Source of the DNA: Elusimicrobia bacterium GWA2_56_46
GTDB taxonomy: Bacteria; Elusimicrobiota; Elusimicrobia; Elusimicrobiales; UBA9959
Assembly (NCBI GenBank): GCA_001799575.1
Contig: MGTT01000017.1
Location: 3,735-61,361, forward strand
Length of the DNA stretch: 57,627 nt
Reading direction: 5' to 3'
Shown here: piece by piece, positions 720 to 57,627 of the stretch
How positions within the stretch are numbered: position 1 is the first letter of the stretch
Layout: each line of letters opens with the position of its first letter
Made by a program: the position numbers and the translations under genes
Notes under the pieces: generated by a model
The model's input: the letters and a program-made list of their open reading frames with translations, nothing else
What the model was told of the DNA's origin: nothing
Database searches by the model: none

Positions 720-2093
720 ATGAACAAAGAAAATACTTTCAAGAGCAAGACCGAACTTATCCTGGCGCTGGAGCAGCTGGAACGGGAAAAGAATATAAAA
801 AGGGACGACGTCTTCAAGACTATCACCGACGCCCTTGTTTCGGCCCTCCGTAAATATTTCGGCAAGACTTCGCAGATCGCGGCCACCATCGATCCCGATA
901 CGGGCGAGATGTGCGGCTATCTGGTGAAAAAGGTCGTGAAAGAGGTATTTACGCCCGAGATAGAGATCAGCGAGGAAGAGGCCGTCAAGTACGAGCCTTC
1001 GGCCAAGCTCGACGAAGAGGTAAATATTCCGGTGGATATCCAGGACTTCTCCCGCATCGCCGCCCAGACGGCGAAGCAGGTGCTCATCCAGAAGATCAGG
1101 GAAATTGAAAAAGTGAAGCTATTCGACGAATTCAAGCCCCGCGAGGGAGAGATCGTCACCGGCCTGGTGCACCATATCGCCGGCCGCGATATTTTCGTGG
1201 ATCTTGGCAAGACCGAAGCCGTTCTGCCCTATTCCGAACAGATCCGGCGCGAGCATTACACCATCAATCAGCGCGTGCGCGCCATCATCCACCGCGTCGA
1301 CAAGGAGAATAAGGGCCTCCAGATAGTCCTCTCGCGCGCCTCCATCGCTTTCCTCAAGGGCCTGTTCGAGGCGGAAGTCCCCGAGATAGCGGAAAAGGTC
1401 GTCGAGATCTCGGACGTGGTTCGCGATCCCGGCTTCAGATCAAAGGTGGTGGTGAAGAGCAATTCCTCAAAGGTGGATCCCGTCGGCGCCTGCGTCGGCA
1501 TCCGCGGTTCCCGCATCCGCGTTATCATGGCGGAGCTTTCCAACGAGAAGATAGATCTTATTCCTTACACCGAGGAGCCGCTGCATATGCTGGCCAAATC
1601 GTTCTCCCCCGCCACGGTGCTTTCCGTCAGGGTGATTGATAAGGCTTCCAAAAAGGCGCTGATCATCGTGCCCGACGACCAGTTGGCGATCGCCATAGGC
1701 CGGGAAGGGCAGAACATAAAACTGGTGTCCAGGCTCACGGGCTGGGAGCTGGAAGTGAAATCGGAAGGGCAGAAAGTGGAGGAAGCCAAAAAAACCAACG
1801 ATATGGCCGTTCAGGATCTGCTGAAAGTAGACGGCATCGGCGCCAAAGTGGCCGATACCCTGGTTAAGCTGGGCATGTCCGATATCCGCAAGATCGCCGG
1901 GTTCACGGTGGAGGATCTGTGCGCTCTGGAAGGGATAGGCGAGAAGACGGCCCAGAAGATCGTTTCCGGCGCCAATAAATTCCTGGAAGAAAACCCCGGT
2001 TACGGCAACAAAACCGCGCCCTCGGCGGCCCCCAAGGTTTTGGAAAACAAAGAGGTACAAGAAAATGAGTCTAAAGAAACAGAAAGCAAATGA
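720..2093 (+). CDS. nusA: Transcription termination/antitermination factor NusA
   Basis: A 457-residue NusA that binds RNA polymerase and modulates pausing, termination and antitermination. Domains in order: the N-terminal polymerase-binding domain (about 1-125), S1 (about 135-200, with GEIVTGLVHHIAGRDIFVDLG), two KH domains (about 230-345, the second with GREGQNIKLVSRLTGW), and a C-terminal helix-hairpin-helix region (about 365-430, with VDGIGAKVADTL and LEGIGEKTAQKI). A GAGGAAAAA ribosome-binding site precedes the ATG. Its 3' end overlaps infB by 29 nt in another frame. Confidence 0.97.
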   Translation: MNKENTFKSKTELILALEQLEREKNIKRDDVFKTITDALVSALRKYFGKTSQIAATIDPDTGEMCGYLVKKVVKEVFTPEIEISEEEAVKYEPSAKLDEEVNIPVDIQDFSRIAAQTAKQVLIQKIREIEKVKLFDEFKPREGEIVTGLVHHIAGRDIFVDLGKTEAVLPYSEQIRREHYTINQRVRAIIHRVDKENKGLQIVLSRASIAFLKGLFEAEVPEIAEKVVEISDVVRDPGFRSKVVVKSNSSKVDPVGACVGIRGSRIRVIMAELSNEKIDLIPYTEEPLHMLAKSFSPATVLSVRVIDKASKKALIIVPDDQLAIAIGREGQNIKLVSRLTGWELEVKSEGQKVEEAKKTNDMAVQDLLKVDGIGAKVADTLVKLGMSDIRKIAGFTVEDLCALEGIGEKTAQKIVSGANKFLEENPGYGNKTAPSAAPKVLENKEVQENESKETESK

Positions 2094-4479
2094 CGATTTG
2101 ACCGGAAAAACAAAGAAAAAATCCGCGGCTAAGCCGGCTGCCGCCGAAAACTCGGAAAAAAAGCCCGTGAAGAAAGCCGTAAAAAAGGCCCAGCCGGAAA
2201 AAGCCGGGGAAAGCGCCGCCGCGCCGGCAAAGGCAAAGAAGCCGGGCGTGGTGAAAGCCAAAAAAAACAAAGCCGCGGAGCCGGTCGAAGCGGTCAAGGA
2301 AGAGGTAAAGCCGCCGCAGCCTCCGAAGCGTCTCATTATTTCCATTTCAAGGCCCGAGGGGTACGTCCCTCCCCCTCAGCCCGCCAAGCCGGAAGTCACG
2401 CCCCCCCCGCCCGCTCCTCCGGTCGTTACGCCCGCACCCGTGCCGGCGCCCGCTGTCAGCGCGGCGCCCGTCATTCCTCCGCAGCCCGCGAAGCCGGACA
2501 TTCCGCCGTCGGGCTCCGTTTACAGGCCCGCCGCCTCGGCCCAGCCGCATAGACCCGCCGCTCACGCTTTCAGACCGTCGTCCGCGCCCGCGCATCCGTC
2601 CCAGCCGGCAAAACACGCCGCGCCGCAGACGCCGGCGCAGCCCGTGAAACCCGCCGCCCCTGTTCCCGCGGCGGGCGCCAAATCCGTCCCGGCTCCCGCG
2701 CCGGTGGAACCTAAGGAGCTTCAGAAACTAAAAGTTTCCACCCAGGTCGTGGTCCGCGAACTGGCGGAAAAAATGAACGTCAAACCCACCGACTATATAA
2801 AAAAACTTATGAGCATGGGCGTGTTCGCCACCATTAATCAGCGCCTCGATCCCGACGTGGCTACACTTGTCGCCGTGGATTACGGCTATGATCTTGAGAT
2901 CGTGCCCATATTCGACGAGGAAGCCGCGGAAGTAGTGGAAACCGAAAAGCCGGAGAACCTTAAGCCCCGTTATCCCATAGTGACGATCATGGGCCATGTC
3001 GACCACGGCAAAACCACTCTCCTCGACGCTCTCCGGGAATCCAACGTGGTGGACTCCGAGGCCGGGCAGATAACCCAGCATATCGGGGCTTACATGGTTT
3101 CCACCCCCAGGGGCAAGATAACCATTCTGGACACCCCGGGCCATGAAGCTTTCACGGCCATGCGGGCGCACGGCGTCAAGATAACCGATATCGTCATACT
3201 GGTGGTCTCCGCGGTGGACGGCGTCATGCCCCAGACGCTAGAAGCCGTCAACCATGCCAAGGCGGCCAATGTCCCGATCATCGTGGCTATCAATAAGATG
3301 GATCTGCCGACGGCCAATCCGCAGGACATAAAGCAGCGCCTGGCCAATATCGGACTCAATCCCGAGGATTGGGGCGGCTCCACGGTAATGGTGGAGATCT
3401 CGGCCAAGAAACGCACCAACCTGGATAAACTTCTGGAATTGGTCAGCATCCAGGCCGAGATGATGGAACTGAAGGCCAACCCCGACAAGATGGGCTCCGG
3501 CATAGTGATCGAATCGCGGCTGGATTCCCAAAAAGGCATCGTGGCGACCGTGATCACTGAGAGCGGAACTATTAAAGTGGGAGACCCGTTCGTAGTCGGA
3601 ACCTCGCACGGCAAAGTGCGCGCCCTTGTGAACGACCGGGGAGCGCGCCTTGAACGGATCGGGCCGAGCGAACCGGCGGAACTCCTGGGTATAGGCGGGC
3701 AGCTCCCGCACGCGGGAGATATCTTCAAGATCTACGCGACCGAAAAAGAAGCCCGCCACGTGGCGGAAAAGAGAAAGCTGCACAAACGCGAAGAATCCCT
3801 GATACATCAGAAACATGTCAGTCTGCTCTCGCTGAAGTCCCAGGTCGACCAGAAACTCCTGAAGAACCTTAACGTCGTCCTCAAAACCGACGTCTTCGGT
3901 TCGCTCCAGGCCATTAAGGATTCTTTGGAAAAGCTGAGCAACCAGGAAGTTGCCATCCGCATCCTCCACTCCGGCGTCGGGAATATCACCGAATCGGACG
4001 TGCTTTTGGCGAAAGCCTCGGATGCCGTCATCTTCGGCTTCCACGTGGACGCGGATTCCAAGGTAAAAGAGGAAGCGAAAGCTTCCGGAGTGGAAATCCG
4101 GACGTATAAGATCATTTATGATCTTATTGAGGACATCAAGGCCGCGATGAGCGGTCTACTTGAGCCGGAAGTGGTAGAGACCGTCACCGGCCGGGCGGAG
4201 ATCCAGCAGATCTTCGACCTGAGTTCAGGAAAAGTCGCAGGCTCGCTGGTCAAAGAAGGTAAAGTAGTCCGCGGCCAGCCGGTCCGGCTGCTCCGGGGAA
4301 AAGATACGGTCTACACCGGAAAGATCTCCGGCCTGAAACGTTTCAAGGAAGACGTGAAAGAAGTGGAAAAAGGCCTGGAATGCGGGATCCTGCTGGAAGG
4401 GTACAGGAATTTCCAGACAGGGGATATATTGGAGGCCGTCACCCGGGAAGAGAGAGTGAGAAGGATACGCCCGGCGTAA
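2065..4479 (+). CDS. infB: Translation initiation factor IF-2
   Basis: An 804-residue IF-2, the GTPase that brings initiator tRNA to the ribosome. The first ~215 residues are a lysine/alanine/proline-rich low-complexity region. An IF2_N-like segment follows ([19 protein letters not shown]), then the G domain with GHVDHGKT (near residue 311), DTPGHEAF and NKMD, and the C-terminal domains. The start ATG lies inside nusA with AAAGAGG upstream, which suggests translational coupling. The long Pro/Ala-rich tail is common in GC-rich lineages. Confidence 0.97.
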
Positions 4480-9442: not shown

Positions 9443-9505
9443 TGCCGGGGACGATCGGGGTAATGTACGATAGTCTGTGTAATTTCTAGCTTGCAAAAAT
9501 AGTAG

Positions 9506-9553
9506 GGGTTATCCTCCAATGTAGTTGCTTAGAAAACACTAGGAGGATAACCC
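9506..9553 (+). promoter_or_regulatory. Hairpin sequestering the transposase ribosome-binding site
   Basis: GGGTTATCCTCC (9506-9517) and GGAGGATAACCC (9542-9553) are perfect 12-bp complements separated by 24 nt. The right arm contains the GGAGG ribosome-binding site for the ATG at 9556. In a transcript entering from outside, the site would be paired and translation blocked. This resembles protection against read-through expression known for IS10 and IS50. The pairing is seen directly; the function is inferred. Confidence 0.7.
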
Positions 9554-9555
9554 TT

Positions 9556-10743
9556 ATGAACAGTATACAGGAACTTTATTTTACCGACAAGGATCTTAAA
9601 GAGCGGCAGGCGCAAATCAAAGAGGATTTCTGGGGCGATCTAAAGTCGGAAACGCTCATAGCAGTCAAGCGATTACTGGAAACTACAATGGAAGTAGAAA
9701 TTCAGGATTTGGCGGGTGCGCGGCGCTGGGAACACAGCACCAAGCGTCTGAATTATCGAAACGGGTTCTACACCCGGAACCTTTGGACGCCGTATGGCTG
9801 GATAAACTCGCTGGCCGTGCCCCGGCTTCGCTCAGGCACGATGAGTTTTAAAACATTCAATAGATACCGGCAGCGGACGGAAGCGGTCAATCATCTTATG
9901 ATGGATATGTTCCTGGCCGGCGTGTCGACCCGAAAAGTTAAAGAAGTGCTGAAGCCGCTTTACGGTCAAAATATGGTCAGCGCCGCCACGGTGAGCGCCG
10001 TAACCAAAGTGCTGGATGGAGCAGTCGGAAAATATCACGCGAGAGCCCTCAGCGACGACTACAAGTTTTTATTCCTGGACGGGATTTATCTGAAGGCTAA
10101 AAGTCCCGTGAAGGCCAGGCGTAGGTGTATACTTGTGGCTTATGGGATAAAAGGAGACGGGACAAGGGAACTTATAGACTTCCGACTTGCCAGAAAAGGC
10201 GAATCCCAGGCTGCATGGGAATGTTTTCTTACCAGTATGCGAAACAGAGGATTTGAAGGCAACCATCTGGAATTAATCTCGATTGATGGCGGGAAGGGAA
10301 TGATGAACGCGCTGGATTTCATATTCCCGGATGTTCCGAAACAGCGCTGCTGGGCGCATAAACTCAGGAATGTGGCCAATCACCTGCCGAAGAAGCTGCA
10401 GAAAGCGTGCACAGGTCAGGCGAAGGGTATTTACGACGCGGAGAACTACGGACGGGCCATAAAAGCATTCAAAACTTGGGCAAAGATCTGGCGTCCTATT
10501 GTGCCCAAAGCCGTTGAATGCCTGGAAGGAGATCTTGAAGACCTGCTTAGGTTTTACGAGTGCCCGAAAGCGATGTGGATAAAGCTTAGGACGACGAATA
10601 TTATAGAGCGGGTATTCAGGGAAGTAAGGCGGCGGACGCGACCGATGAGTTGTTTTACCAACAGTAAAAGCGTGAAACGGATAATTTTTGCCATATTCAA
10701 CAGGCAAAATGTGATTTGGAAGGATAAACCCTTGGCGATGTAG
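9556..10743 (+). CDS. IS256-family (mutator-type) transposase
   Basis: A 395-residue DDE transposase of normal family length. Visible landmarks are the first acidic region FLFLDGIYLK, the stretch GDGTRELIDFRLARKGES, the second aspartate in LISIDGGKGMMNAL followed by RCWAHKLRN, and the C-terminal TTNIIERVFREVRRRTRPM containing the likely catalytic glutamate. The reading frame is intact from ATG to stop, so it is probably active. GGAGG precedes the start with 9-nt spacing but lies in a hairpin arm. Confidence 0.95.
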   Translation: MNSIQELYFTDKDLKERQAQIKEDFWGDLKSETLIAVKRLLETTMEVEIQDLAGARRWEHSTKRLNYRNGFYTRNLWTPYGWINSLAVPRLRSGTMSFKTFNRYRQRTEAVNHLMMDMFLAGVSTRKVKEVLKPLYGQNMVSAATVSAVTKVLDGAVGKYHARALSDDYKFLFLDGIYLKAKSPVKARRRCILVAYGIKGDGTRELIDFRLARKGESQAAWECFLTSMRNRGFEGNHLELISIDGGKGMMNALDFIFPDVPKQRCWAHKLRNVANHLPKKLQKACTGQAKGIYDAENYGRAIKAFKTWAKIWRPIVPKAVECLEGDLEDLLRFYECPKAMWIKLRTTNIIERVFREVRRRTRPMSCFTNSKSVKRIIFAIFNRQNVIWKDKPLAM

Positions 10744-10751
10744 GTGGAGCG

Positions 10752-10852
10752 GGTGACAGGCATGGGTTGGATCGGGCCGAGGAGGAACCGGCGCGAAGTC
10801 GCCGGGCCGGCCGCAGGCCCGATGGGCCCCATGCCTGGCAGGACCCGCGAAC
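10752..10852. repeat. Large hairpin module inside the IS, shared with repeat R3
   Basis: Nested inverted repeats: GCGGGT plus CAGGCATGGG on the left pair with CCCATGCCTG plus ACCCGC on the right; ATCGGGCC pairs with GGCCCGAT; and the tip is CCGGCG/CGCCGG around CGAAGT. The reverse complement of about 10759-10852 matches 57536-57627 closely, including GGGGCCCATCGGGCCTGCGG and GGCGACTTCGCGCCGGTTCC. It has no plausible coding content. It is either IS-derived or a repeat that has inserted into the IS. Confidence 0.8.
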
Positions 10853-10885
10853 CCTGCACTGGGAAATTACACAGAAGTCTTGACG

Positions 10886-11905
10886 TTACCGACGATCGGC
10901 GGTTTGGATGCGGGATTTGCGGGGCGCGTGCGGGATGAACGTTTCGTGCAGCGCCTTCAGCAGGGGTTCGCCATCCCGGAAAGCGGCGGTAAGGGTGAGC
11001 TTGCCCGGAGCACAGGTTATTTTCCTTAACCGATGTCCTTCGGCCGCGGCCGCCGCTTTTACCGTTTTTTTTATTCCCGGCGTATCCAGTTTTGAGCCTA
11101 TAAGACAGATCTCGGCCGATCGGCCGGTTTTTTTCATGGAAAAACAGATCACCCGCGGCCGTGCGCCGCCGTGGTCGAAGTCTCCGATCCTCGTGCCCTC
11201 CCCGTTCTCGAAAGAAGAGCGCAGGTGCAGGGGTATGCGGTATTTAGCGGCGTAGGTTATGGCCTGAAACTGCCTTACTTCGGCGCCGGAGCGCGCCAGT
11301 TCCAGCATCGCGGCGTAGGAGACCCTGGGGAGCTTTTTCGCCCGGGGTACTATGGCCGGGTTGGCGGTGTAGATCCCCCGCACATCCGTATAGAGTTCGC
11401 AGACACCGGCCTTGAGCGCCCGCGCCAGCGCCACCGCCGTCAGATCGGAACCGCCCCTGCCCAATGTCGTAATATCTCCGGATTTGTCCGCTCCCTGGAA
11501 GCCCGCCGCGACCACGATACGGCCTTTTTTGAGTTCCCGGAGTATTCGCGCGGGATTTACGGCGGTTATGCGGGCCGAGCCATGGACGGAGTCGGTTCTT
11601 ATTCCGGCCTGTATTCCGGAGAGAGAAACGGCTTTGACGCCCAGTCCGCTTATCGCCATGGCCATCAGAGCGGCGCTCACCGTTTCACCGGCGGAAAGCA
11701 GGACATCGCGCTCGCGCGCTTCCGCCCCGGTTGTTATAAGTCTGGAAAGGGCCAGCAGGTCGTCGGTCATGTCCGCCGGCGCGGATACCGCCATGACCAC
11801 CCCGGATCCGCCGGCGCGGATCCTGACCGCCCGTTCAGCCATTATCTTTATTTTTTCGGGCTCGGCCAGGGAACTGCCGCCGAATTTCATCACGATTATT
11901 TTCAT
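10886..11905 (-). CDS. lysC: Aspartate kinase, 3' end rewritten by IS insertion
   Basis: A 339-residue aspartokinase (aspartate to aspartyl-phosphate, first step to Lys/Thr/Met). N-terminal MKFGGSSLAEPEKI, FQGADKSGDITTLGRGGSDLTA and ELYTDVRGIYTANPAIV are typical catalytic-domain motifs. The C-terminus holds only a short ACT-like region (AEICLIGSKLDTPGI and later GEPLLKALHETF), shorter than the usual two ACT domains, so feedback control may differ. The TAA stop lies in the right end of the IS256 element. Removing the IS and one duplication restores an ending DRPRH-stop, so the insertion replaced three C-terminal residues with one. Confidence 0.88.
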   Translation of the reverse strand: MKIIVMKFGGSSLAEPEKIKIMAERAVRIRAGGSGVVMAVSAPADMTDDLLALSRLITTGAEARERDVLLSAGETVSAALMAMAISGLGVKAVSLSGIQAGIRTDSVHGSARITAVNPARILRELKKGRIVVAAGFQGADKSGDITTLGRGGSDLTAVALARALKAGVCELYTDVRGIYTANPAIVPRAKKLPRVSYAAMLELARSGAEVRQFQAITYAAKYRIPLHLRSSFENGEGTRIGDFDHGGARPRVICFSMKKTGRSAEICLIGSKLDTPGIKKTVKAAAAAEGHRLRKITCAPGKLTLTAAFRDGEPLLKALHETFIPHAPRKSRIQTADRR

Positions 11906-19450: not shown

Positions 19451-20617
19451 TCAGTCCCGAGATTGCCTCTTCAGGCTCTCTTTGATCATATTGGCGGCTA
19501 TGACGTTGCGCTGAACCTGGCTTGTGCCCTCATAGATCTGGGTGATCTTGGCGTCGCGCATATATTTTTCCACCGGGTATTCCCTCATGTAGCCGTAACC
19601 TCCGAAGATCTGGACGGCGTCCGTGGTCACGCGCATCGCGACCTCGCTTGCGAAAAGTTTCGCCATGGCGGATTCTTTGGCCACTGATTTCGCGCCTGAG
19701 TCCACCATGCGGGCCGCGGCGTACACAAGCGCGCGCGCCGCCTCTACCTGCGTGCCCATATCCGCCAGCATATGCTGGATGCCCTGGAAACCGGAGATAG
19801 GCTGGCCGAACTGGACTCGGGTCCTGGCGTATTCCACGGCGTGGTCAAGCGCGCCCTGCGCTATGCCGACAGCCTGGGCCGCCACTCCCGGCCTGGAACT
19901 GTCGAATGTTTTCATCGCCACTATGAATCCCATTCCCTCTTTTGAGATAAGGTTGGAGGCGGGAACCTCGCAGTCGGTGAAAATAACCTCGCGCGTCGCC
20001 GAGGCCCGTATTCCCAGCTTTTTTTCCTTTTTCCCGAAGCTCAGGCCCTTCGCGCCTTTTTCCACGATGAACGCGCTCGCGCCCCGCGCGCCCTTGGCTT
20101 TATCCGTGAGGGCTATCACGGTATATATTTCGGCCTCGCCCGCGTTGGTTATCCACTGCTTGGTTCCGTTCAGAATGTAGCGGTCGCCATCTTTCCGGGC
20201 GGTCGTTTTTATCGATCCCGCATCCGATCCCGCCCCCGCCTCGGTTATGCAGAAAGCTGCCAGTTTCTTGCCTTTCGCTATGTCCGGCAGGAACCTTTTT
20301 TTCTGCTCTTCCGAGCCGTACAGAAGTATCGGGATAGCGCCCAGGCCGGTTCCCGCGAACCCGAGCGCTATGCCTCCGCAGGCGCGGGACAATTCCTCGG
20401 TCACAAGGCACATATCCAGGATGCCGCCACCCAGGCCTCCGTATTGCTCCGGGATATAGACGCCGAAGAGATCGCTTTCGGCCAGTATTTTCATTACCGG
20501 CCAGGCGAATTCTTCGGTCTCGTCGTAATGGGCCGCGACCGGCTTTATTTTCTCGTCCGCTATTTTCTTAGCGAGATCCCGTGTCATCGTCTGCTGTTCG
20601 GTCAAAAAATAATCCAT
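19451..20617 (-). CDS. Acyl-CoA dehydrogenase
   Basis: A 388-residue FAD-dependent acyl-CoA dehydrogenase of short-chain type and length. It begins [20 protein letters not shown]. Motifs include [29 protein letters not shown], and the C-terminal [23 protein letters not shown] with [10 protein letters not shown]; the catalytic base is expected in the YEGTS region. The start is ATG 20617 with AAGGAG seven bases upstream, not the in-frame codon at 20653. It heads a three-gene operon with etfB and etfA. Substrate chain length is unknown. Confidence 0.94.
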
Positions 20618-20666
20618 GGATCGGCTCCTTGATAGTCCTGAAAAGCGTCGCATTCCTACAGCTATA

Positions 20667-20704
20667 ATACAAAAAAGAGGGCCGGCCTAAAAAGCCGGCC
20701 CTTT
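20667..20704 (-). terminator. Rho-independent terminator of the secreted-protein gene
   Basis: On the minus strand an 8-bp stem GGGCCGGC/GCCGGCCC with loop TTTTTAG is followed by TCTTTTTT. It lies about 25 bp after the stop of the gene ending at 20729. Flanking A and T runs make it potentially bidirectional. Confidence 0.88.
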
Positions 20705-20728
20705 TCCAACCGCGACTGAGGCTTAGGA

Positions 20729-21394
20729 TTACAGCGCGGTGTTGGGAACGCTGGGAGGACAGCCGTGGAAAGGCACCCAGGGCGGCGTAGACGGGAAAGG
20801 ATTGGGTTTGGTTATCCAGGAGCCGTCCTTGCACTGATATGAGCAGGAGTTGACGGTGTCTATCACCAGCGAGCAATAATCCTGCGCGCCACCTTTTGCG
20901 TCGGCGGCTTTGGCCTGGGGAGTGAGTCGGAATTCGCTGAGAACAAGGTCTTCCCTGTATTTGTACGCCGGAGTGATCTGTTTCAAACTGAGGAACTGGC
21001 CCCAGAGACATACTTCAAAAACCTCGGTCTGGCCGGGGTTCAGCGTGCGCGGTTCGGTTATCACTATCCGGACGTCTTCCCTGTAAACGTTGGTGTGGGG
21101 AAAGCAGATCTGGCCCGGAGGGTAGCCCGTGTTCTGGCAGTCCTGGTACATTTCCGTGCTTGAGAGCCGGACCGTTGGGGAGGTCAGCGGGCTTGTTTCC
21201 GTGAAAGTTATTTTTTTGCAGTCCCGGAAAGTATAAGAGGGCACTATGAATTTGGCCTCCGGAGCCTTAACTTCGGAAACGGACGCTTCCTCCACAATGT
21301 TCCGTACGTTCACGCCCTGGTCGAAGTTAACTTCGGCCGAAGCGAACCGGCTTAACGACAGCAGCACGACAGCGCATATTGTTGATCTCATCAT
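20729..21394 (-). CDS. Secreted cysteine-containing protein of unknown function
   Basis: A 221-residue protein with a signal peptide (MMRSTICAVVLLSLSRFASA). The mature part contains eight or so cysteines (DCKKI, YQDCQNTG, GQICFP, FEVCLWG, DYCSLV, NSCSYQCKDGS, GCPPS), suggesting disulfides in the periplasm or at the surface, and a proline-rich C-terminus. I do not recognise the family. AAAGGAGA precedes two consecutive ATG codons. It has its own terminator, so it is probably monocistronic. Confidence 0.75.
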   Translation of the reverse strand: MMRSTICAVVLLSLSRFASAEVNFDQGVNVRNIVEEASVSEVKAPEAKFIVPSYTFRDCKKITFTETSPLTSPTVRLSSTEMYQDCQNTGYPPGQICFPHTNVYREDVRIVITEPRTLNPGQTEVFEVCLWGQFLSLKQITPAYKYREDLVLSEFRLTPQAKAADAKGGAQDYCSLVIDTVNSCSYQCKDGSWITKPNPFPSTPPWVPFHGCPPSVPNTAL

Positions 21395-21502
21395 CAGTAT
21401 TCTCCTTTGTGATTCGATATTAATCTACCCCGATACTACGTTCCTATTCTACAATTTTTTGGCGGGCAATAGAATAGATTTGAATTCCAGCTTTCCCGCG
21501 GC

Positions 21503-22195
21503 CTACTTGTCGGCCCATTTATAGCCGAGTCCCGTTACCGGCTCAATGCAGTCCGCGTAACGCCCCAGTTTGGATTTCAGCCGGTGAATCGTCACTTTTA
21601 TGGTGTCTCTCGTAGCTATGGCGTTTAATCCCCAGACGGCTTCCGCTATAAACGCATATTCCAAAATACGCTCTTCCCGTCTGAGAAACATCGCCAGCAG
21701 GGCGAATTCCTTGGGCAGAAGATCCGCTTTTTCCCCGTCCACAGTGACATCGCCGGTGTCGAAATTTAGAGTGAGGCCTCCGGAAACAAGAACCTTATCA
21801 GTTTTCCCCTGGTGATAACACCGGCGCAGGAGCGCGTCGATGCGGGCCAGCAGCTCATTATTCGAACACGGTTTTACGATGTAATCGTCGGCGCCGGTTT
21901 TCAGGGACTCCACTTTATGAAATTCGTCCCTTACGGAGGTAAGCATTATCAGCGGAATGCTGGCGGTTACAGGGTCATCTTTCAGTATTTTACAGAACTG
22001 CATACCGGAAAGACCGGGCAGCCCCATGTCCGAAATTATCAGTTCCGGTTTATGATCTTTAAGCCACTCAAGCGCGCTGTTGGCGTCGGTAAAGGCTATA
22101 GGAAAGTGTCCGGCTTCCGTTAAAAGGCCGCATACCAGAGCGGAAATATTTTCATCGTCCTCTATTATTAAAATTTTTGCTTTCGAGATCGGCAT
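21503..22195 (-). CDS. OmpR/PhoB-family response regulator
   Basis: A 230-residue two-domain regulator. The receiver (about 5-120) has the acidic pair in IIEDDEN, the phosphoacceptor Asp in LIISDMGLPGLSG, the Thr/Ser switch in IMLTSVRDE, and Lys in YIVKPCSNNEL. The C-terminal winged helix (about 135-228) has LLPKEFALLAMFLRREERIL and RDTIKVTIHRLKSKLG. It should bind tandem direct repeats; the 11-bp repeats at 29570-29613 are a candidate target. AAGGCGG lies upstream of the ATG. No cognate kinase is adjacent. Confidence 0.92.
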   Translation of the reverse strand: MPISKAKILIIEDDENISALVCGLLTEAGHFPIAFTDANSALEWLKDHKPELIISDMGLPGLSGMQFCKILKDDPVTASIPLIMLTSVRDEFHKVESLKTGADDYIVKPCSNNELLARIDALLRRCYHQGKTDKVLVSGGLTLNFDTGDVTVDGEKADLLPKEFALLAMFLRREERILEYAFIAEAVWGLNAIATRDTIKVTIHRLKSKLGRYADCIEPVTGLGYKWADK

Positions 22196-22341
22196 GGCCC
22201 GCCTTATTGGAGAAGTTCTTTCCGCAGTATTTTAGCAGAAAGGCGCTCCTGTCGTAAATGCTTGCTTGCGCGCGGAATCTGCCGCAGGATTTAAACGGTA
22301 AGAACCGGACAAAAAGGCCGGCGCCGGACTTTGCCAATGAT

Positions 22342-25300
22342 TTATTTCACCACGGAGACCTTTTTTATCTTCTTCTTGCCGTCATGCTCGAAGTAAACCA
22401 GGTACAGGCCGCTTGCCGCTTTCCGCTCCGCCTTGTTGCGTCCGTACCACACGGCAAGGCCTGCGGAGTTGGCTTTCCCCTCCCACACCAGTTCACCGTT
22501 CAAGGTGTAGATCTTAACAGTAGTCCCCTCCGGCACGCCGTCCAGGCTCACCTGCGTATGGCCCTTATTGGGATAGAACGGGTTGGGATAGATCCGTGCG
22601 CTGTCCAGGTTGGTGCCGGCGGCCAGTACCATCACCTGGAACAGGGAGAAATGGGTGGTCCGTCCGGATACTGTGTTCCGCTCGGGATAAGACACGGACT
22701 CAAGGGGTATCCAGCCCCTGGAGCTCTCATCGTAGCGGGCGAGCACCAGCTTTGTGCGATCCACCCCGGCCATTTCGGCGTCGGTATAGGTAACCTCCAA
22801 AGTGGCCGCTTTCGCGGGCTGCACCGCCTGATCAAGGGTTATCTCCAGACCTACGCCGGTGGACTTAAGGCCCCCGTTCTGGACGGGATCCACGGGGGGC
22901 AGAGCGTTAGGCACCTTTAAGCTCAGCACGACTTCGCCGGCAAAGGACGCGGCCGGGATGCTGACGCTCATCGGGCGCTCTATAGCGGAATTACTCGCTA
23001 TCAGCGCCGCGCTGGCGGGAACGACAGTGCTTACAGCCACTACTCTGCCGGACTGTGAAGCGTCTTTTGAGACCGTGACGCGTACAACAGCGCTGCTTCC
23101 GATATTGCCCGCCGCATCGTAGGCTCTGGCCTGTAGAGTGTGCTGTCCGTCCGCGACCGTGCTGAAGTTCCAGGGGAAAGCATACGGAGGCGAAATCGCC
23201 GCGCCCAATAGCGCGCTGTCGGCGTAAAACTCGACTTTGGTTACTCCGACATTGTCGGAGGCGTCGGCCGTAACGGCCACGACATTCGACGGCTTCTGCT
23301 CCGCGAGCGCCCGGTAGGCGTTGATCCTTCCATAAGTCCAATACGTGCCGGTTCCGGGGATGTATTCGGCGGAGGCTTCGATCTGTTTGCGGACGCAGAC
23401 GTTATCGGAGCATATCCCGCTGGACCAGATCATGGCGGCCAGGCCGGCGACGATAGGAGAGGCGTAGGATGTGCCGTTGCCGGTTTCATAGCCGTCCACG
23501 GCCGTGGGATAGACGGACGCGGAAAAGACCGCGGCGCCGGGGGCGGCGACGCTCACCCAGGAGCCGTGGTTGGAGAAAGAGGCCTTCGCGTCATCCTTGT
23601 CGGTGGCCGCCACCGAGATGACGTTTCCGTAGGCCGCCGGATAAAATTTAGCGTTCGTGTTGCTGTTCCCGGCCGCGGCGACGATGACCGCGCCTTTTGA
23701 CCAGGCGTAATTTACCGCGTCTTCCAGCGCGGCCGAGTAGTTGCTGCCCCCCAGGCTCAGGTTGATAACCTTGGCGCCGCCGTCCGCCGCCCACCGCACC
23801 CCTTCGGCTACCGCGGAATAGGGGCCCGAGCAGTTGTCCGATAATACCGTTACGTCCAGCAGCGGGGAGTTGTACGCCACGCCCGCGCCGCCTTTCCCGT
23901 TGTTGCCGCTGGCGGCCGCAAGGCCGGCCACGAAAGTGCCATGTTTGCAGCCGGTCGCGCCCGCGAACACTTTTCTCGCGCTTACCTTTCCGGTGAGATC
24001 GGGGTGGCTGTCCGCGACGCCGGAGTCCACGATGGCTATTTTTACGCCGCTGGCACCGGCGGTCATGTCCCAGGCGCTTGCCTTCGTCCCGGCGGCCGCC
24101 GTTATGAAGAGATGCCACTGTTTGTCGAGGAGCGGGTCGTTCGTGCGGCCCACGGCTTGCGCGATATAATCCGGCTCGGCATAGAGGACGTCCGGATCCT
24201 GCGAGTAGCTACGGACGGCGTCCAGCACGGTGCCGGAGGCGACGCGCACGATCTGGACATCTATGCCGGAGATCTGTGAGACCGCGCTTGTGCCGGCGGC
24301 GGCGTGGGCGGTTCTCATGGCCGCGGCGCCCAGCCCGGACTTGAACTTGACCAGCACGGTGTCGGAGATAAAGTCGGAGGGGTCGGCGGACGAGAGCGTG
24401 AAAGCGGTCCGGGCAGGCTCCACATAGGCCGCCGGGCCGGACTGGGTCCCCCGCGCCGGAACGACCGCCCAGTCGGAGGGCGAGGTGATCTTTACGGAGG
24501 GTTTGGCGGTGTCCGCCGCGGCGGCGGAGGAATAGGCCGAGAGATTTCCGGCACCGTCATAGGCCCGTATCCGCGCGTGATACGTGGAACCCGCGACCAG
24601 CCCGGCCGCTCTGGTGGATACCACCAGTCCCACATCCCGGTTTTTCCACCCCGCCACGTAGCTAGTGAAGCCGCTGTCTGGAGAAATATCCACCCTATAT
24701 CCCTCCAATTCGCTTCCGCCGTTGTCCGTGGCGGGATCCCAGGACAGAGTTATGGAACGCTCGCCTTTTGCGAGGGCCGGATTTCGCGGAGCGGACGGCG
24801 CGGTATGATCCAGATACCCTTCTACGAGGGTATAGCCGGAGTTGTATTCGCCTGCGAACTGCGGATTGAATTTGGGATTCCCGGACTTTTCCCGTGTCGT
24901 ATAAAGCACATATTCCGCCAGTTCTCCCAGTTCAACGCCGCCGTTGCGCTGTTTCCCCTCAAAGCCGTCGCCCGATCCGCTTATTCCGGTCCAGACCGCG
25001 TAGGTAAAAGAGTTGCCCACGTTGGGATCGCCGGTCGCGCCGGAAAGTTGTTCGGCCGAAACGGCCGTCAAAACGACCAGGTTCCTTCCTGAGCGGCTTC
25101 GTCCCTGCCAGGATCCGGGCGACGCTTTTAGCGCGTCCGCAAGATATCCTGAATGGCACGCCATGGTAAGCGCTATTACGTCGCGCGCCGGAAGGCCTGC
25201 GATCATACCGGCCAGTTCATTCCAGGTTATGGTCGTGGGTTCAGGCCCTGAAAAATTCAGTATTATCCCGGACGCGCCGCCGTGAGTATGGGAATACATG

Positions 25301-28300
25301 ACGAAAGTATCGTTGGGTCCCAGGTTCGCTTTATAATATGCGAGGCGGCTCTTGATGGAGGCTACGCTGACCTGGCTGGCATCGCTGATGATCTCCGTTT
25401 CAAAGGCCGGACGCGCCATTGAGCCGAAAGCGAACGCCACTTTGGCGACCGATTGTTTCATCCGGGCGGTCTGGTCGGGAGGGTCGTCCGGTTTGGAAGT
25501 GCCGAAAGCGAACAGTATCCTCCGCCGGCTTGTTTCAGCCGAAACCGTTCCGCTGTATGGCGAAAGGTTGCCGTTCCCGTCGCGGGCACGTATGCGGGCG
25601 TAGTAAACGGTTCCGGAAATAAGTCCCGCGGCCGTGAGGGATGTGACAAGGCCGACATCCTTGTTCTGATAGCCTGCGGCGAAAGAGGAAAAATCTGGCG
25701 AAGAAGATATATCCATCCGATACCCGGCCAGGCCGCTGCCTCCCGCGTCCGTGGATGCCGACCAGCTAAGATCAACACTCCGGTCTTTTCCCGTGGCCCG
25801 CAATCCCGTTGGCGCCGAAGGCGGCGTAGAGTCTATGGATGACGATATGGGCGTAGCGGTAAGGGAGAGCGCGCTTGCCTCGACATCGTTCGAATATCCC
25901 CCCCAGATCTCCCAGCCCAGAAGAATCTGGGATACATGATAATCCGACGTGTTGAAGGACTGCCCGTAGTTGGTTTTCAGGGCTTTCAAAGCGTTCGTCA
26001 GTATCTCGATCGCGTCCACCGAATAGTCCACTCTCTGGCCGCGTTTAAGCGACGGATATAGGGGGGAAGAATAGACTACCTGTCCGAACTGATCCGGCAT
26101 GATCCACTCCGCGTTGTTCACATGAGACGTCCCGTCCTCGGAGTAAAACATCGGCACGAGGGCGAAGATCGTATTCGCGTTGATCGTTCCCCCTGTGGAA
26201 GGCACTGTCTTGGTAAGCACGAATGTCATGTAGAAAAGCTCATGGTTCGGGAAGGATGTGCTCCAACTGCCGCCAGGGCACTGCTCTCCTGTTTTCGCGC
26301 TGTTGTTCAGGAGTATAGATCCGGAAAATAGCATCTTGCTGTATCGTCCGACACGGAATTTACCCTGGGAATCGGTGGGATCCTTGATGTCCTGTCCGAT
26401 CAGAAAATGCGGCCAGTTCGTCGCCGGATCGCCGTATTTAGGACGGGCGCCGTTCTGATCCGGAAGCGACAAATTACACCCGGATCGCCACTCTTTGGCG
26501 GTATCAATGCGCCACCCGATCCTGCCGCCGCCGTAATTGAGGAATTGCTTCGAGCCATCGCTTGAGCTGTAGGTCATCGGAGAGGAGCCAGAGGGAGTAG
26601 CCGGATTGTCGCAGAAGTATGTTTTTTCGGCTATTTCCCAAAACAGCCAGCTGGCGTTTGAGAGCGACGGGCTTCTGGCCGCCCATCGGGATTTGCAGAT
26701 GGTATCTTCCGCATCCGGATATGTATTAGCCCAGCCATGCTGCACGCCGAGAGCGAATGAAGGATCGGCGAACAACTGTCCGGATACGGGCGCGTTCCCG
26801 CTGGTGACGGCCGTGACCGACGCTGATTGCGCGGACACGTTGCCCGCCGCGTCGTAAGCGGCCACAGTGTAGGAATAGGCGGTGGAAGGCGACAAACCTG
26901 TGTTCTGGAACGATGTCCCGGCGCTGGTTCCTATCTGCGCGCCGCCCCGGTACACCTTGTACCCCGCGACGCCGGTGTTGTCGGTAGAAGCGGCCCAACT
27001 GAGGTTGATCTGCGAGGAAGAAACAGCCGAGGCATTAAGTCCCTGCGGAGCGGACGGTGGCGTTATGTCCTGCGTAACATTGTTCACCGTAATACTTACA
27101 GAGGCGCTGATCCCGATATTGCCCGCCGCGTCGTAGGCCTTCGCCTGCAGGCTGTGCACTCCGTTTGCCAACGGCTTAGTGTCCAGCGTGAATGAATACG
27201 GACTTGCGGTATCGGTATTCTTCAACACCCCGTCCAGATAAAACTCCACCTTCGAAACGCCGGTATTGTCGGAGGCGTTGGCCGATATGGTTATGGTTCC
27301 GGAAACGGTGGAACCGTTGGCCGGCGCGGTTATGGATACCGTCGGCGGCGTGTCTACGGGCGCAGCGCAGGTAATCGTGTTTATTGAATTAGGATTGGAC
27401 AACAAGGCAAGCGGAACGCTCCCGACTACCGCGCCGTTGGCGTTTATACTACCGACGTAGGGATATAGAACGTGGCGTCTGCCATCTTTCAACGATGCCG
27501 GCGTTGAAAATACGAATCCGTGCGCCGCGGAGCCGCCGCACTGCTGCGCCACGCCGGCTTCGCGCGCGGCGTTGGCGGTAACATTTCCAAGCAGGATCCC
27601 CTGCCCTGCCGGGCCGTCCGCGTAGAAAGTAACCGTCAAGGCGGATGGATACCTGTCCGGATCGCACACCCACCCTACGCTCGCGTTGCAATCCGAACCT
27701 TCGTGCCAACCCACCGGCGCCGCGTCCCGTACGACGTTGTTCACCGTAACGCTTATAGAGGCGCTGGTTCCGGCATTGCCCGCGGCGTCGTAGGCTTTAG
27801 CCTGTAGCGTATAAACGCCGTTCGACACCTGCGTAGTATCCAGCGGGAACGAATACGGCGCCGCCGTAAGCGTCTTTATCAACACGCCGTTGGAATAAAA
27901 CTCCACTTTAGAAACACCCACATTGTCGGAAGCGCTGGCGGATATGGTTATACTGCCGGAAACAGCGGCTCCGTTGGCCGGAGCGCTTATGGCTACTGTG
28001 GGGGCTGTGGTGTCCGCGGCGGCACAGGTGAAAAACTGCGCGGCCGGAGTCGCCGGCCGGACCAGCAATGGGTTATCGTTTGAGTCCGGGTTAATACCGT
28101 AAACATAGATTTGGTGCGTTTTACCGTCTTTCAACGAAACCGGCGTCGCGAAAGAGAACCCGTGATTAGAGTACCCGCCGCATTGGGCTCCGACAGCGGC
28201 TTCACGGACCAGATTGGCGGTGCTTTCCCCCAGGAAAGTGCCAGAGGGGTGAGGCGCATCCGCGTAGAAGTGCACCTTGATCGGCGTGGAATAATGATCC

Positions 28301-28470
28301 GGGTCGCAGGCCCAGCCCAGGCTCACCTCGCAGGTCGAGACATCGTGCCAGCCCTTGGGGATCTGGTCCGCGGCGGCATTTGCCGCCATGATGAGCGTCG
28401 CCAATAAAGTGAAAAGGCCGGCCAGGCATCCGCGCGGATAATTAGTTTTACAGTCACGTTTTATTCTCAT
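22342..28470 (-). CDS. Giant secreted protein with clan-CD-like cysteine peptidase, subtilisin domain, Ig/FN3 modules and type IX-like C-terminal tail
   Basis: A 2042-residue exported protein. In order: signal peptide (about 1-35); two copies of a Cys-containing ~115-residue module beginning GWH with GWACDPD or GWVCDPD, each followed by an Ig-like domain (VSKVEFY, LQAKAYDAAGN); FN3; a ~320-residue unrecognised Cys-rich region; FN3; a caspase/legumain-like domain with His in MYSHTHGG (near 1062) and Cys in MACHSGYL (near 1104); FN3; an S8 domain with propeptide-like DTVLVKFKSGLG, Asp in IVDSGV (near 1480), His in KHGTFVAG (near 1511) and Ser in GTSYASPIVAG (near 1670); Ig-like; a ZU5-like segment; and a tail with IYPNPFYPN and ASGLYLVYF, ending in a Lys-rich strand. 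The tail resembles type IX sorting domains. It lies 30 bp after a PorV-like gene. Confidence 0.85.
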   Translation of the reverse strand: MRIKRDCKTNYPRGCLAGLFTLLATLIMAANAAADQIPKGWHDVSTCEVSLGWACDPDHYSTPIKVHFYADAPHPSGTFLGESTANLVREAAVGAQCGGYSNHGFSFATPVSLKDGKTHQIYVYGINPDSNDNPLLVRPATPAAQFFTCAAADTTAPTVAISAPANGAAVSGSITISASASDNVGVSKVEFYSNGVLIKTLTAAPYSFPLDTTQVSNGVYTLQAKAYDAAGNAGTSASISVTVNNVVRDAAPVGWHEGSDCNASVGWVCDPDRYPSALTVTFYADGPAGQGILLGNVTANAAREAGVAQQCGGSAAHGFVFSTPASLKDGRRHVLYPYVGSINANGAVVGSVPLALLSNPNSINTITCAAPVDTPPTVSITAPANGSTVSGTITISANASDNTGVSKVEFYLDGVLKNTDTASPYSFTLDTKPLANGVHSLQAKAYDAAGNIGISASVSITVNNVTQDITPPSAPQGLNASAVSSSQINLSWAASTDNTGVAGYKVYRGGAQIGTSAGTSFQNTGLSPSTAYSYTVAAYDAAGNVSAQSASVTAVTSGNAPVSGQLFADPSFALGVQHGWANTYPDAEDTICKSRWAARSPSLSNASWLFWEIAEKTYFCDNPATPSGSSPMTYSSSDGSKQFLNYGGGRIGWRIDTAKEWRSGCNLSLPDQNGARPKYGDPATNWPHFLIGQDIKDPTDSQGKFRVGRYSKMLFSGSILLNNSAKTGEQCPGGSWSTSFPNHELFYMTFVLTKTVPSTGGTINANTIFALVPMFYSEDGTSHVNNAEWIMPDQFGQVVYSSPLYPSLKRGQRVDYSVDAIEILTNALKALKTNYGQSFNTSDYHVSQILLGWEIWGGYSNDVEASALSLTATPISSSIDSTPPSAPTGLRATGKDRSVDLSWSASTDAGGSGLAGYRMDISSSPDFSSFAAGYQNKDVGLVTSLTAAGLISGTVYYARIRARDGNGNLSPYSGTVSAETSRRRILFAFGTSKPDDPPDQTARMKQSVAKVAFAFGSMARPAFETEIISDASQVSVASIKSRLAYYKANLGPNDTFVMYSHTHGGASGIILNFSGPEPTTITWNELAGMIAGLPARDVIALTMACHSGYLADALKASPGSWQGRSRSGRNLVVLTAVSAEQLSGATGDPNVGNSFTYAVWTGISGSGDGFEGKQRNGGVELGELAEYVLYTTREKSGNPKFNPQFAGEYNSGYTLVEGYLDHTAPSAPRNPALAKGERSITLSWDPATDNGGSELEGYRVDISPDSGFTSYVAGWKNRDVGLVVSTRAAGLVAGSTYHARIRAYDGAGNLSAYSSAAAADTAKPSVKITSPSDWAVVPARGTQSGPAAYVEPARTAFTLSSADPSDFISDTVLVKFKSGLGAAAMRTAHAAAGTSAVSQISGIDVQIVRVASGTVLDAVRSYSQDPDVLYAEPDYIAQAVGRTNDPLLDKQWHLFITAAAGTKASAWDMTAGASGVKIAIVDSGVADSHPDLTGKVSARKVFAGATGCKHGTFVAGLAAASGNNGKGGAGVAYNSPLLDVTVLSDNCSGPYSAVAEGVRWAADGGAKVINLSLGGSNYSAALEDAVNYAWSKGAVIVAAAGNSNTNAKFYPAAYGNVISVAATDKDDAKASFSNHGSWVSVAAPGAAVFSASVYPTAVDGYETGNGTSYASPIVAGLAAMIWSSGICSDNVCVRKQIEASAEYIPGTGTYWTYGRINAYRALAEQKPSNVVAVTADASDNVGVTKVEFYADSALLGAAISPPYAFPWNFSTVADGQHTLQARAYDAAGNIGSSAVVRVTVSKDASQSGRVVAVSTVVPASAALIASNSAIERPMSVSIPAASFAGEVVLSLKVPNALPPVDPVQNGGLKSTGVGLEITLDQAVQPAKAATLEVTYTDAEMAGVDRTKLVLARYDESSRGWIPLESVSYPERNTVSGRTTHFSLFQVMVLAAGTNLDSARIYPNPFYPNKGHTQVSLDGVPEGTTVKIYTLNGELVWEGKANSAGLAVWYGRNKAERKAASGLYLVYFEHDGKKKIKKVSVVK

Positions 28471-28500
28471 AAAAAAGCCGCCTTGACCATTATAGGAATT

Positions 28501-29547
28501 TTATCTGAAGAAGTAAGCCAGCCTGTCGTCATCGGCATTGCGTTTCGCGGTTCGCTGCCCGTATCTGTTGTATTTGCTCTCCGCGTCGCTGCGCGCGCCG
28601 CCGAATTTCATCGTCAGCGAGATCCGGTGCGCGATCCCGAGATCCCCGAACGGAACCACCGCGTAATCCACGGCCATATTCTTCACCACCACCCCGAGTC
28701 CGCCGCTTATGCCGTTTATCCCGGAGATATCGCCCATGGTAAGACTGTTGGCGCCGAAGCGCAGCAGCACGCGCATATCGTCGTCTTTATAGGCAGTATG
28801 CTCCGTCCCGGCGCAGAGATACGGGGCGTTGCCGCGGGGCGCCACGAGATCCGCGGCGATAAGCCAGTTTTTGGCTATACTCAGCGCGCCGCCCGCTTTA
28901 AAGGTAGTGGGTAACGGATCGCTTTCTTTATCGAACTTCATACCGCCGCCCAGGTTCTGCGCCACCAGGGCGAGCCTTAAAACCTTACCCCCCACGCCGG
29001 TCTTGGCGGATATCCCGGCGTCAAAAGCGAAAGCGCTGGCTTTTTCTATGATCTTGGAACTTATATATTTACCGCTTATCCCGGCCTGGTAAGCCCCCTT
29101 CTCCGCGCCAAGGGCCTCCAGGTCGGCCGCGTAGGACAGGGTGCCGGCGTAATCTCGGGGCTGGTAGTTCCCCAGGCTGTTGCCTGAGGCGTCCGTATGC
29201 TCCACACTGCCCCCGTTCATATAGGCGACCGCGCCGCCGAACGCGGAAGAGCCGTTTGAATGGGTGAACGAGAGGTAATCAAAGCTTATATCGGCCAGGT
29301 AGCTTGAGTGCATGAACATCACCGAAAGCTCCGGCGCGCGCACAAGGCCGGCGGGGTTCCAGGATACCGCCGAAGCGTCCGCGGCCACCGCCGAGTACGC
29401 CCCTGACATTCCCACCGCCCGGGCGCCCATTCCCATAGTGAGGAACGCCGCCCCGGTGGTGCCTTTGGCGCCGGAATTAAAATCCCCGGCCGCCAGGTTT
29501 GTCCAGGCGGCGAGGGTGGCTATCAGCAGGGCGGCCAGGGTCTTCAT
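28501..29547 (-). CDS. PorV/PorQ (UPF0164)-like outer-membrane beta-barrel protein
   Basis: A 348-residue protein with a signal peptide (MKTLAALLIATLAAWTNLAAG). The N-terminal signature is GAAFLTMGMGARAVGMSGAY then DASAVSWNPAGL, followed by alternating barrel-like strands to RISLTMKFGG. This pattern is typical of PorV/PorQ-type 14-strand barrels. In type IX secretion PorV carries cargo tails to the surface attachment complex. The gene directly downstream encodes a protein with such a tail, so they are likely partners. A -10 box ends six bases before its ATG, with four 11-bp repeats upstream. Confidence 0.82.
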   Translation of the reverse strand: MKTLAALLIATLAAWTNLAAGDFNSGAKGTTGAAFLTMGMGARAVGMSGAYSAVAADASAVSWNPAGLVRAPELSVMFMHSSYLADISFDYLSFTHSNGSSAFGGAVAYMNGGSVEHTDASGNSLGNYQPRDYAGTLSYAADLEALGAEKGAYQAGISGKYISSKIIEKASAFAFDAGISAKTGVGGKVLRLALVAQNLGGGMKFDKESDPLPTTFKAGGALSIAKNWLIAADLVAPRGNAPYLCAGTEHTAYKDDDMRVLLRFGANSLTMGDISGINGISGGLGVVVKNMAVDYAVVPFGDLGIAHRISLTMKFGGARSDAESKYNRYGQRTAKRNADDDRLAYFFR

Positions 29548-29553
29548 ACCAAT

Positions 29554-29613
29554 AGTATAAGACCATGCGGTTAAACTGCGGTTATACCGCGGTTACAGTT
29601 TGGTTACAGTTTT
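29554..29613 (-). promoter_or_regulatory. Activator-type promoter with four 11-bp direct repeats
   Basis: On the plus strand the units are GTTAAACTGCG (29570-29580), GTTATACCGCG (29581-29591), GTTACAGTTTG (29592-29602) and GTTACAGTTTT (29603-29613). Read on the minus strand they become 7-bp words CTGTAAC, CTGTAAC, GTATAAC, GTTTAAC with 4-bp spacers, the architecture of a Pho box bound by PhoB/OmpR proteins. A -10 box TATACT (29559-29554) follows with no good -35; the repeats occupy that position. The -10 box ends six bases before the ATG at 29547. The repeats are seen; regulator identity is inferred. Confidence 0.75.
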
Positions 29614-29741
29614 TGGAGTCTTTGGAACCGAACGAAATCAGGCGGGCGCGGCGATTTTATCCGTCCCCGCCTTTTATGATATATTCATAAGAAAGGGCGG
29701 CCAGATAGCCGGTTGCTTGCGGGATCCTGCGTTCGTAAACT

Positions 29742-31612: not shown

Positions 31613-31629
31613 ATCCAGGTACCCCAAGT

Positions 31630-31695
31630 GGAAAAATGGCGGCAGGCTGCCAGTTCGGAGCCACCCCTCCACCGATACCCTGCCGCCATCCTCCC
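31630..31695. repeat. Palindromic element R1 (short form)
   Basis: A 66-bp element with ends GGAAAAATGGCGGCAGG (31630-31646) and the complement of GGGAGGATGGCGGCAGG (31679-31695); the inner 11 bp match perfectly. The interior, CTGCCAGTTCGG joined to GCCACCCCTCC and CGATACC, equals that of R2 with the central hairpin removed. It lies 17 bp after the receiver gene. Confidence 0.85.
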
Positions 31696-31708
31696 ATATA
31701 ATTAGCCT

Positions 31709-31881
31709 GAATCCTGCAGTTGGAAGCGGTTTCCATAGGAAAATCAGGCGGACAGAATCATTCTGCAGGATTCCCCGCGAAGCGGGCGTCGGGCCCAGCG
31801 CTATGCGCGCCCGGCCCGACGAGGTGTATGCCTCCCGGAGGGCGCCCGCTGTGCGGGCGGAAAGTTGCAACCGCAACTTTC
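31709..31881. repeat. Array of consecutive perfect hairpins
   Basis: GAATCCTGCAG (31709-31719) is inverted at 31763-31773, bounding a 65-bp unit. Then come CCCGC-GAA-GCGGG (31774-31786), CGTCGGGCC/GGCCCGACG (31787-31795 and 31813-31821), CCTCC/GGAGG (about 31831-31841), GCCCGC-TGT-GCGGGC (about 31844-31858), and GAAAGTTGC-AACC-GCAACTTTC (31860-31881). It could be a structured RNA or stacked small mobile palindromes. I do not recognise an RNA family. Confidence 0.65.
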
Positions 31882-31936
31882 AGGTTAGCGGGCAAAAGTT
31901 AAATTATTAGCCAAACTGAGCCTGGCTCCTTTTTAA

Positions 31937-32627: not shown

Positions 32628-32654
32628 TGGGCTGTCGATCATTTACAGATGTAA

Positions 32655-32784
32655 GGAAGAATAGCGGCAGGGTATCGTTGGAGGGGTGGCGATGGAGAGC
32701 CTTTTTGTCCCGCAGGCTTCCGAGGGAAGCAAAAAGGCTCTCCGTCGACAGGACCCCGAACTGGCAGCCTGCCGCTATTTTTCC
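32655..32784. repeat. Palindromic element R2 (long form)
   Basis: A 130-bp element whose 17-bp ends, GGAAGAATAGCGGCAGG (32655-32671) and the complement of GGAAAAATAGCGGCAGG (32768-32784), differ at one position. The centre is a hairpin with a perfect 14-bp stem (GGAGAGCCTTTTTG/CAAAAAGGCTCTCC) tipped by GCTTCC/GGAAGC. It ends five bases beyond the nuoN stop. Relative to R1, the variable base in ATrGCGG is changed to A at both ends, preserving pairing. Confidence 0.88.
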
Positions 32785-32789
32785 TATTT

Positions 32790-57513: not shown

Positions 57514-57627
57514 GGAAAAATGGCGGCGGGCTGCGAGTTCGGGGGCCTGCCAGCCATGGGGCCCATCGGGCCTGCGGGGCCCGGCGACTTCGCGCCGGTT
57601 CCCCTCCGGCCCGATCCGACCCATGGC
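57514..57627. repeat. Palindromic element R3, cut by the window edge
   Basis: Begins GGAAAAATGGCGGCGGG (57514-57530) and continues CTGCGAGTTCGGGGGCCTG like R1 and R2. Its centre is different and matches the hairpin module inside the IS256 element (reverse complement of about 10759-10852). The right end lies beyond the window. Confidence 0.85.

Follow-up and report, generated by a model that had tools for sequence, protein, structure and literature searches.

A lineage-specific family of short hairpins with apparently exchangeable cores and its probable passenger copy in an IS256-family element of an Elusimicrobiota bacterium

Introduction

Palindromic repeats are common in bacteria, and their origin and upkeep are poorly understood. 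Among the best described systems, the BOX elements of pneumococcus are modular (boxA-boxB-boxC), whereas REP, BIME and REPIN elements, which are accompanied by RAYT transposases, are dispersed hairpins with a GGAG-type foot. The elements described here resemble BOX elements in being short intergenic hairpins that are assembled from modules and have a variable interior, but differ from them in that the same pair of arms can enclose any of several unrelated cores and in that an insertion sequence (IS) carries one of the elements. Like REP, BIME and REPIN, they are dispersed hairpins with a GGAG-like foot and with Y1 genes in some of the hosts; unlike these, they are longer, have structured cores and show no association with Y1 genes across genomes.

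BOX elements are also named in passages of PMC10969869, which cover two further systems of relevance. As in the Rickettsia palindromic elements (RPEs) of these passages, we find palindromes of about 100-150 bp and many families in one lineage; however, RPEs lie in-frame within genes and encode peptide, whereas the copies here are located mostly between genes and in each other. The IS-derived MITEs of the same source are likewise non-coding, inverted-repeat and numerous, but the free copies of the hairpin frame found in our IS lack the terminal repeats of this IS. A literature search across titles, the beginnings of abstracts and passages of PMC10969869 returned no description of the present hairpin elements.

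Here we analyse a window of 57,627 nt, that is, the entire stretch 3735-61361 of contig C17, from a genome of 2.66 Mb in 30 contigs whose relatives include the MAG Elusimicrobia bacterium UBA9634, so that the host is an Elusimicrobiota bacterium. A hairpin module in an IS of this window probably belongs to a lineage-specific family of short non-coding hairpins in which conserved arms (the frame) surround an exchangeable core; it was probably captured by an ancestor of the IS and has since been carried as a passenger, with the core exchanged via the arms and the folded strand under selection. With one frame holding two unrelated cores at a fixed place in the IS, one core occurring in several frames and pairing retained throughout, the system would allow core exchange, selection on the folded strand, and the pick-up and spread of a non-coding passenger by an IS to be studied in a natural experiment.

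Results and discussion

An IS256-family element with a hairpin module

The IS (Table 1) encodes a transposase of the Mutator/IS256 type, with the stop codon at 10741-10743, and is bounded by terminal inverted repeats that are identical at 20 of 28 positions after a 1-nt shift; the target duplication around it has the size of 8-9 bp that is characteristic of IS256. The duplication itself is observed and suggests that this intact copy moved with the module inside its ends. Subtraction of the 108-bp module from the 1,432 bp of the IS leaves about 1.32 kb, in agreement with the remark in the initial annotation that the IS would be about 1.3 kb without the module, a normal size for the family.

Table 1 Features of the window discussed in the text
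Feature	Coordinates	Strand	Remarks
Target-site duplication, left copy, GACGATCGG	9450..9458	.	9 bp; 8 bp if the IS starts at 9458; read directly and located by script
IS256-family insertion sequence	9459..10890	+	1,432 bp including the module; starts GGTAATG, ends GTTACC; terminal repeats and duplication
IS256-family transposase, intact	9556..10743	+	395 aa; Pfam Transposase_mut 1.2e-86; NCBIfam NF033543 2.3e-91
Hairpin module, putatively captured; frame 1 arms TGGAGCGGGTG / CCCGCGAAC with core A inside	10745..10852	+	108 bp; between stop codon and right terminal repeat
Core A, apparently exchangeable interior	10759..10838	+	Limits approximate, as the arms are common to other cores; other IS copies with this frame have core B here
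Right terminal repeat of the IS, reverse complement GGTAACGTCAAGACTTCTGTGTAATTTC	10863..10890	+	Read directly and by script
Target-site duplication, right copy, GACGATCGG	10891..10899	.	Read directly and located by script
Frame 2 arms without core	31625..31698	-	Repeat search
Frame 2 with a third core, C	32653..32785	+	Directly behind ORF 32790-34235 (-)
R3, frame 2 with core A	57542..57627	-	Apparent lack of one side due to the end of contig C17, which coincides with the last base of the window

The module matches the R3 element at the other end of the window in inverted orientation. A repeat search of the window aligned 10761-10808 with 57578-57625 (48 nt, 92%) and 10811-10846 with 57542-57577 (36 nt, 94%), and the local alignment score of the module and R3 was 68, whereas 200 mononucleotide shuffles of the module, scored against positions 20001-30000 of the window, reached at most 20. 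The inverted match that had been noted previously is thus confirmed, although the shared unit is wider than the originally delimited region of about 10759-10852, extending from right after the stop codon (10745) to 10852. The accompanying claim that the IS copy lacks the ends of the R family and shares the core alone holds for the outer stem of the R elements, which is indeed absent from the IS, but not for the arms: TGGAG-C-GGGTG / CCC-G-CGAAC in the IS and TGGAGGGGTG / CCCCCGAAC in the R elements are homologous arms, the former having an additional C and an additional G, which are opposite one another and would form a further pair. The module region has 52 matches in its own genome, many of them short or partial. 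Under a stricter pattern, 37 distinct elements with this core were found in all loci examined, 24 of these in the source genome, with the window copy, which is identical in context to that in locus L001, counted once.

Frames and cores of the hairpin family

The elements can be described as combinations of frames and cores, for which we coined the labels used here. Frame 1 is the frame inside the IS, and frame 2, that of the R elements, has an outer stem, GGCGGCGGG / CCCGCCGCC, around its arms. In five loci (L088, L098, L099, L105, L106), core C is enclosed by a third frame, of the type GTAAGTTTTACGGCGGGTG ... CAGGCCCCGCC, and in two more (L083, L094), frame 2 is nested in a frame of this type. 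Palindromes of the type AAAGGTGCCAGGCACCTTT / TTTTTCTGCTGAAAAAT occur beside many frame-3 elements as well as near a Y1_Tnp gene (L112).

Core A is found in the window IS and in R3, core B in relics of the IS and in genome G013, and core C in the window element at 32653-32785. In core D, the stem of core C carries a large insert (L115, L129), with L123, L133 and L152 containing a related form, and core E belongs to genus g11 (L119, L131, L132, L134). In one of the latter loci, L134 (G026:C66), the region of about 1640-4376 contains four core-E hairpins, all in one orientation and about 840-860 bp apart, a spacing that might suggest integron-like cassettes.

The frame-1 pattern yielded 31 hits in 7 of 37 genomes (11 in the source genome G000, 8 each in G003 and G013, and one each in G001, G016, G017 and G021), compared to a single hit for the reversed-pattern control. 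Frame 2 was matched 40 times in G000 (2 in the control), 18 times in G003, 8 in G002, 7 in G026, 4 in G013 and twice in G001. Further frame-2 matches in G022, G027, G036, G017, G021 and G055, and at least one in G032, resemble coding sequence that has no hairpin. The DNA of core A matched 4 of the 37 genomes, all from one genus. Outside the 37 genomes, a copy is present in another genus (L126, G034:C278), where core A in frame 1 occurs together with a core C like that of the source genus; contamination is possible in this 4.5-Mb MAG. For core C, a pattern survey of the loci examined gave 20 elements and a loosened pattern 38. When 198 genomes of the phylum were searched with a core C model, with at most 24 candidates scored per genome and the count accordingly a floor, the source genome alone matched, among 21 entries listed that include no other genomes of the same genus. 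The locus in G001 that is orthologous to the 32653 element is syntenic on the right side and rearranged on the left, and contains a different palindrome rather than a clean empty site. At 31702-31888, the window also harbors a dispersed, structured repeat of another, unrelated kind, about 187 bp in length, with many full and partial matches in the sister genomes G001 and G002 and no Rfam match at the gathering cut-off.

Exchange of cores between frames

Four relics of the IS (L029, L030, L063, L065) match the window copy to the left of about 10760 (86-92%) and to the right of about 10834 (84-91%), and between these matching flanks lies the unrelated core B. Core A joined to the IS end is found in G000 (the window, L001, L003, L020) and in G001 (L240). 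Conversely, the 37 core-A elements are distributed over several frames, with 7 in frame 1, 21 in frame 2 and 9 in others. Judging from these sequences, the core is exchangeable, given that core A occurs in different frames and different cores occupy the IS frame at the same junctions; the initial annotation had proposed, as one of two options, that the core moves independently of its frame, and to this extent the data bear it out.

Two small inserts in core A point in the same direction. Insert F is present in 2 of the 7 frame-1 copies, in 1 of the 21 frame-2 copies and in one copy in another frame, which also carries insert Z; the latter is otherwise found in one frame-1 and one frame-2 copy. 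As each insert is present or absent in both frames, in all four combinations, either the cores swapped frames or the inserts re-entered the same site, and repeated insertion of F or Z at one site could mimic core exchange. Insert F (GCCGNCTG...CATAG...CGGCAC...CATAG; L020, L046, L137, L162, L164, L167, L168, L182, L230, L240) contains two ATA-loop hairpins, the stems of which vary between copies yet stay paired, and is present as a tandem duplicate in L164.

In the IS, the existence of core-A and core-B copies with the same junctions suggests that the core was exchanged after its arrival. Recombination or gene conversion between hairpins via the shared arms GGGTGNC / GNCAGGNCCC would replace the interior and leave the frame in place. 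A more radical possibility, which we regard as tentative and rather unlikely, is that arms, cores and small inserts are separate families of hierarchical hairpin parasites that settle inside the hairpins of others such that the composite is still one hairpin; frame 2 in frame 3, core D in the stem of core C, and insert F in core A and in other contexts would be examples. This would require a process for which hairpin loops are the only targets or the only tolerated sites, possibly acting on RNA or single-stranded DNA, and the IS256 element would be merely one vehicle.

Folding, covariation and a possible role in transcription

The module folds at -67.3 kcal/mol, compared to a shuffled mean of -47.9 (z = -5.55). 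Core C shows extensive covariation: in an alignment of 36 of the 38 elements (the copy at 1671 in L092 was excluded for an internal deletion and that in L111 for a longer stem), 99.0% of the cells of 20 pairs are paired, and 12 pairs have changes on both sides. Such double changes account for 142 cells, compared to 46.7 in shuffled alignments, and the covariation score is 0.511 versus 0.162 shuffled and at most 0.106 when slid; the number of further pair types, 27 versus 26.7, shows no excess. The alignment for core A includes 22 of 26 elements (L009, L020, L025 and L046, which have large inserts, were excluded) and comprises 21 distinct sequences; 12 of the 32 pairs have changes on both sides, with 20 such cells versus 6.2 shuffled and a score of 0.111 versus 0.050 shuffled and at most 0.055 slid. 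The inner helix is invariant, and the pairs at columns 25-88, 27-86 and 28-85 are unpaired in 15-16 of the 21 sequences. For both cores, the shuffles keep the make-up of columns but not the relatedness among copies, so the significance is overstated.

One position in the arms is occupied by A-G or G-A in 32 of the 37 core-A and 29 of the 36 core-C copies and never by A-A; the remaining copies have standard pairs, except for one G-G. The combination of covarying stems with a retained A-G/G-A mismatch argues for selection on the folded strand, which would be RNA or single-stranded DNA. Counts of G-U versus A-C that might indicate the strand (23 versus 8 in core C, 4 versus 5 in core A) are too weak to use.

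Covariation could arise also without a selected structure, if template switching during replication renders the arms of palindromes complementary, a correction that is known for imperfect palindromes in E. coli (PMC7202029). Such correction would be expected to remove the A-G/G-A mismatch, but both this mismatch and an asymmetric inner loop (AA vs G) persist uncorrected in nearly all copies. Hence, as the sole explanation, template switching appears unlikely, although it could yield part of the covariation.

Equally doubtful is the view that the module is retained as a terminator of transcription or an insulator downstream of genes. The module does follow the transposase stop immediately, stop codons are also found within about 15 nt of the elements at 31625 and 32653 in the window, and in frame 2 a GC stem is followed by a terminal ATTTTTCC. 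However, a scan of the IS module detected no intrinsic terminator, that is, a GC stem followed by a T run, and among 55 elements, the neighboring ORFs are co-directional in 35 cases, convergent in 13 and divergent in 7, a weak 3' leaning only, in a survey based on rough calls of non-overlapping ORFs. Searches for known RNAs returned, with Rfam 15 at the gathering cut-off, only one tRNA in 10 sources; a relaxed threshold applied to 8 other sources yielded a tRNA and otherwise only weak matches below the cut-off, several of these to viral miRNA models, and ARAGORN predicted no tRNA in ten element loci.

Relationship to Y1 transposases

The hairpins could be REP-like elements that are moved by a Y1 (RAYT-type) transposase acting on single-stranded hairpins with a GGAG foot. 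The source genome does encode two Y1_Tnp genes, and both frame 1 and frame 2 have GGAG as their 5' foot. In frame 3, however, it is mostly missing, and the elements neither track Y1 genes across genomes nor adjoin them: G002 and G003 have 8 and 18 frame-2 hits but no Y1 gene (G003 being only 68% complete), G007 and G008 have 9 and 8 Y1 genes but no frame-2 hits, and the 1.5-kb flanks of the two Y1 genes in the source genome contained no element in a motif search. Mobilization by such an enzyme is therefore improbable. Inspection by eye revealed no clear target duplication around free copies, the edges of which are not fixed.

Origin of the module in the IS

A search of 61 genomes for the transposase gave a match in 11. 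In the IS of G026, with 80% transposase identity, the stop codon directly abuts the terminal repeat (AAACCCTTAAAATAAATTACACA) and there is no hairpin; G020 (62% identity) and four right ends in G018 likewise lead from the transposase end to the terminal repeat without one. G013, from the same genus as G026, has an IS with the module, in this case core B in frame 1 (L075/L180). The survey of IS256 homologues for the module covers the genomes named here; a further genome scan gave one locus. Because the closest relatives of the IS lack the module, it is not a normal 3' region of the IS.

The frame also occurs independently of the IS. Of the 31 frame-1 hits, 13 are joined to the IS right end, of which a script flagged 11 and inspection by eye added L162 and L028; the other 18 are not (7 in G003, 6 in G013 and one each in G000, G001, G016, G017 and G021). 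Compared with the terminal repeats of this IS alone, these free copies do not qualify as IS-derived MITEs. Given the free frame-1 copies, and frame 2 being the more common home of core A, capture by the IS is the simpler direction, and the simplest reading of the sequences is that an ancestor of the IS captured a free frame-1 hairpin, not the reverse. An ancestral IS256-family element would have gained the hairpin downstream of its transposase stop codon, ahead of the right terminal repeat, and would have carried it as a passenger ever since. No matched pair of empty and filled capture sites was found within one lineage, so that the exact junction of the captured element is inferred, and no target duplication is discernible at the capture junctions in the approximately 12 bp on the left (conserved IS sequence up to the left arm) or the approximately 9 bp on the right.

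These observations run against the earlier suggestion that the R elements took the core from an IS, as frame 1 is free of the IS in seven genomes. The refuting case named at that time, that all copies of this IS and its relatives in distant genomes carry the module as a normal 3' region and R3 is an IS remnant, fails on both counts: relatives without the module exist, and R3 is no such remnant. The proposed link to a likely active transposase survives for the passenger copy only, with its intact IS and 9-bp duplication, and not for the free elements. A view in which the hairpin belongs to the IS itself as a native 3' segment, perhaps regulating the transposase, and the R elements are decayed derivatives of IS ends, is very improbable and already largely refuted: all right ends of this IS lineage seen in G000 bear frame 1 or its remains, and the solo right ends L001, L003 and L020 retain it, but the closest IS relatives have no hairpin, most frame-1 hits have no IS end, and frame 2 possesses an outer stem of its own that is absent from the IS.

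The relics have a further peculiarity. Five of them (L029, L030, L062, L063, L065) share a similar internal deletion in the IS256 element, and all seem to lie inside a further repeat frame; four of the five contain a second frame-1 hairpin, of the core E type, on the other strand.
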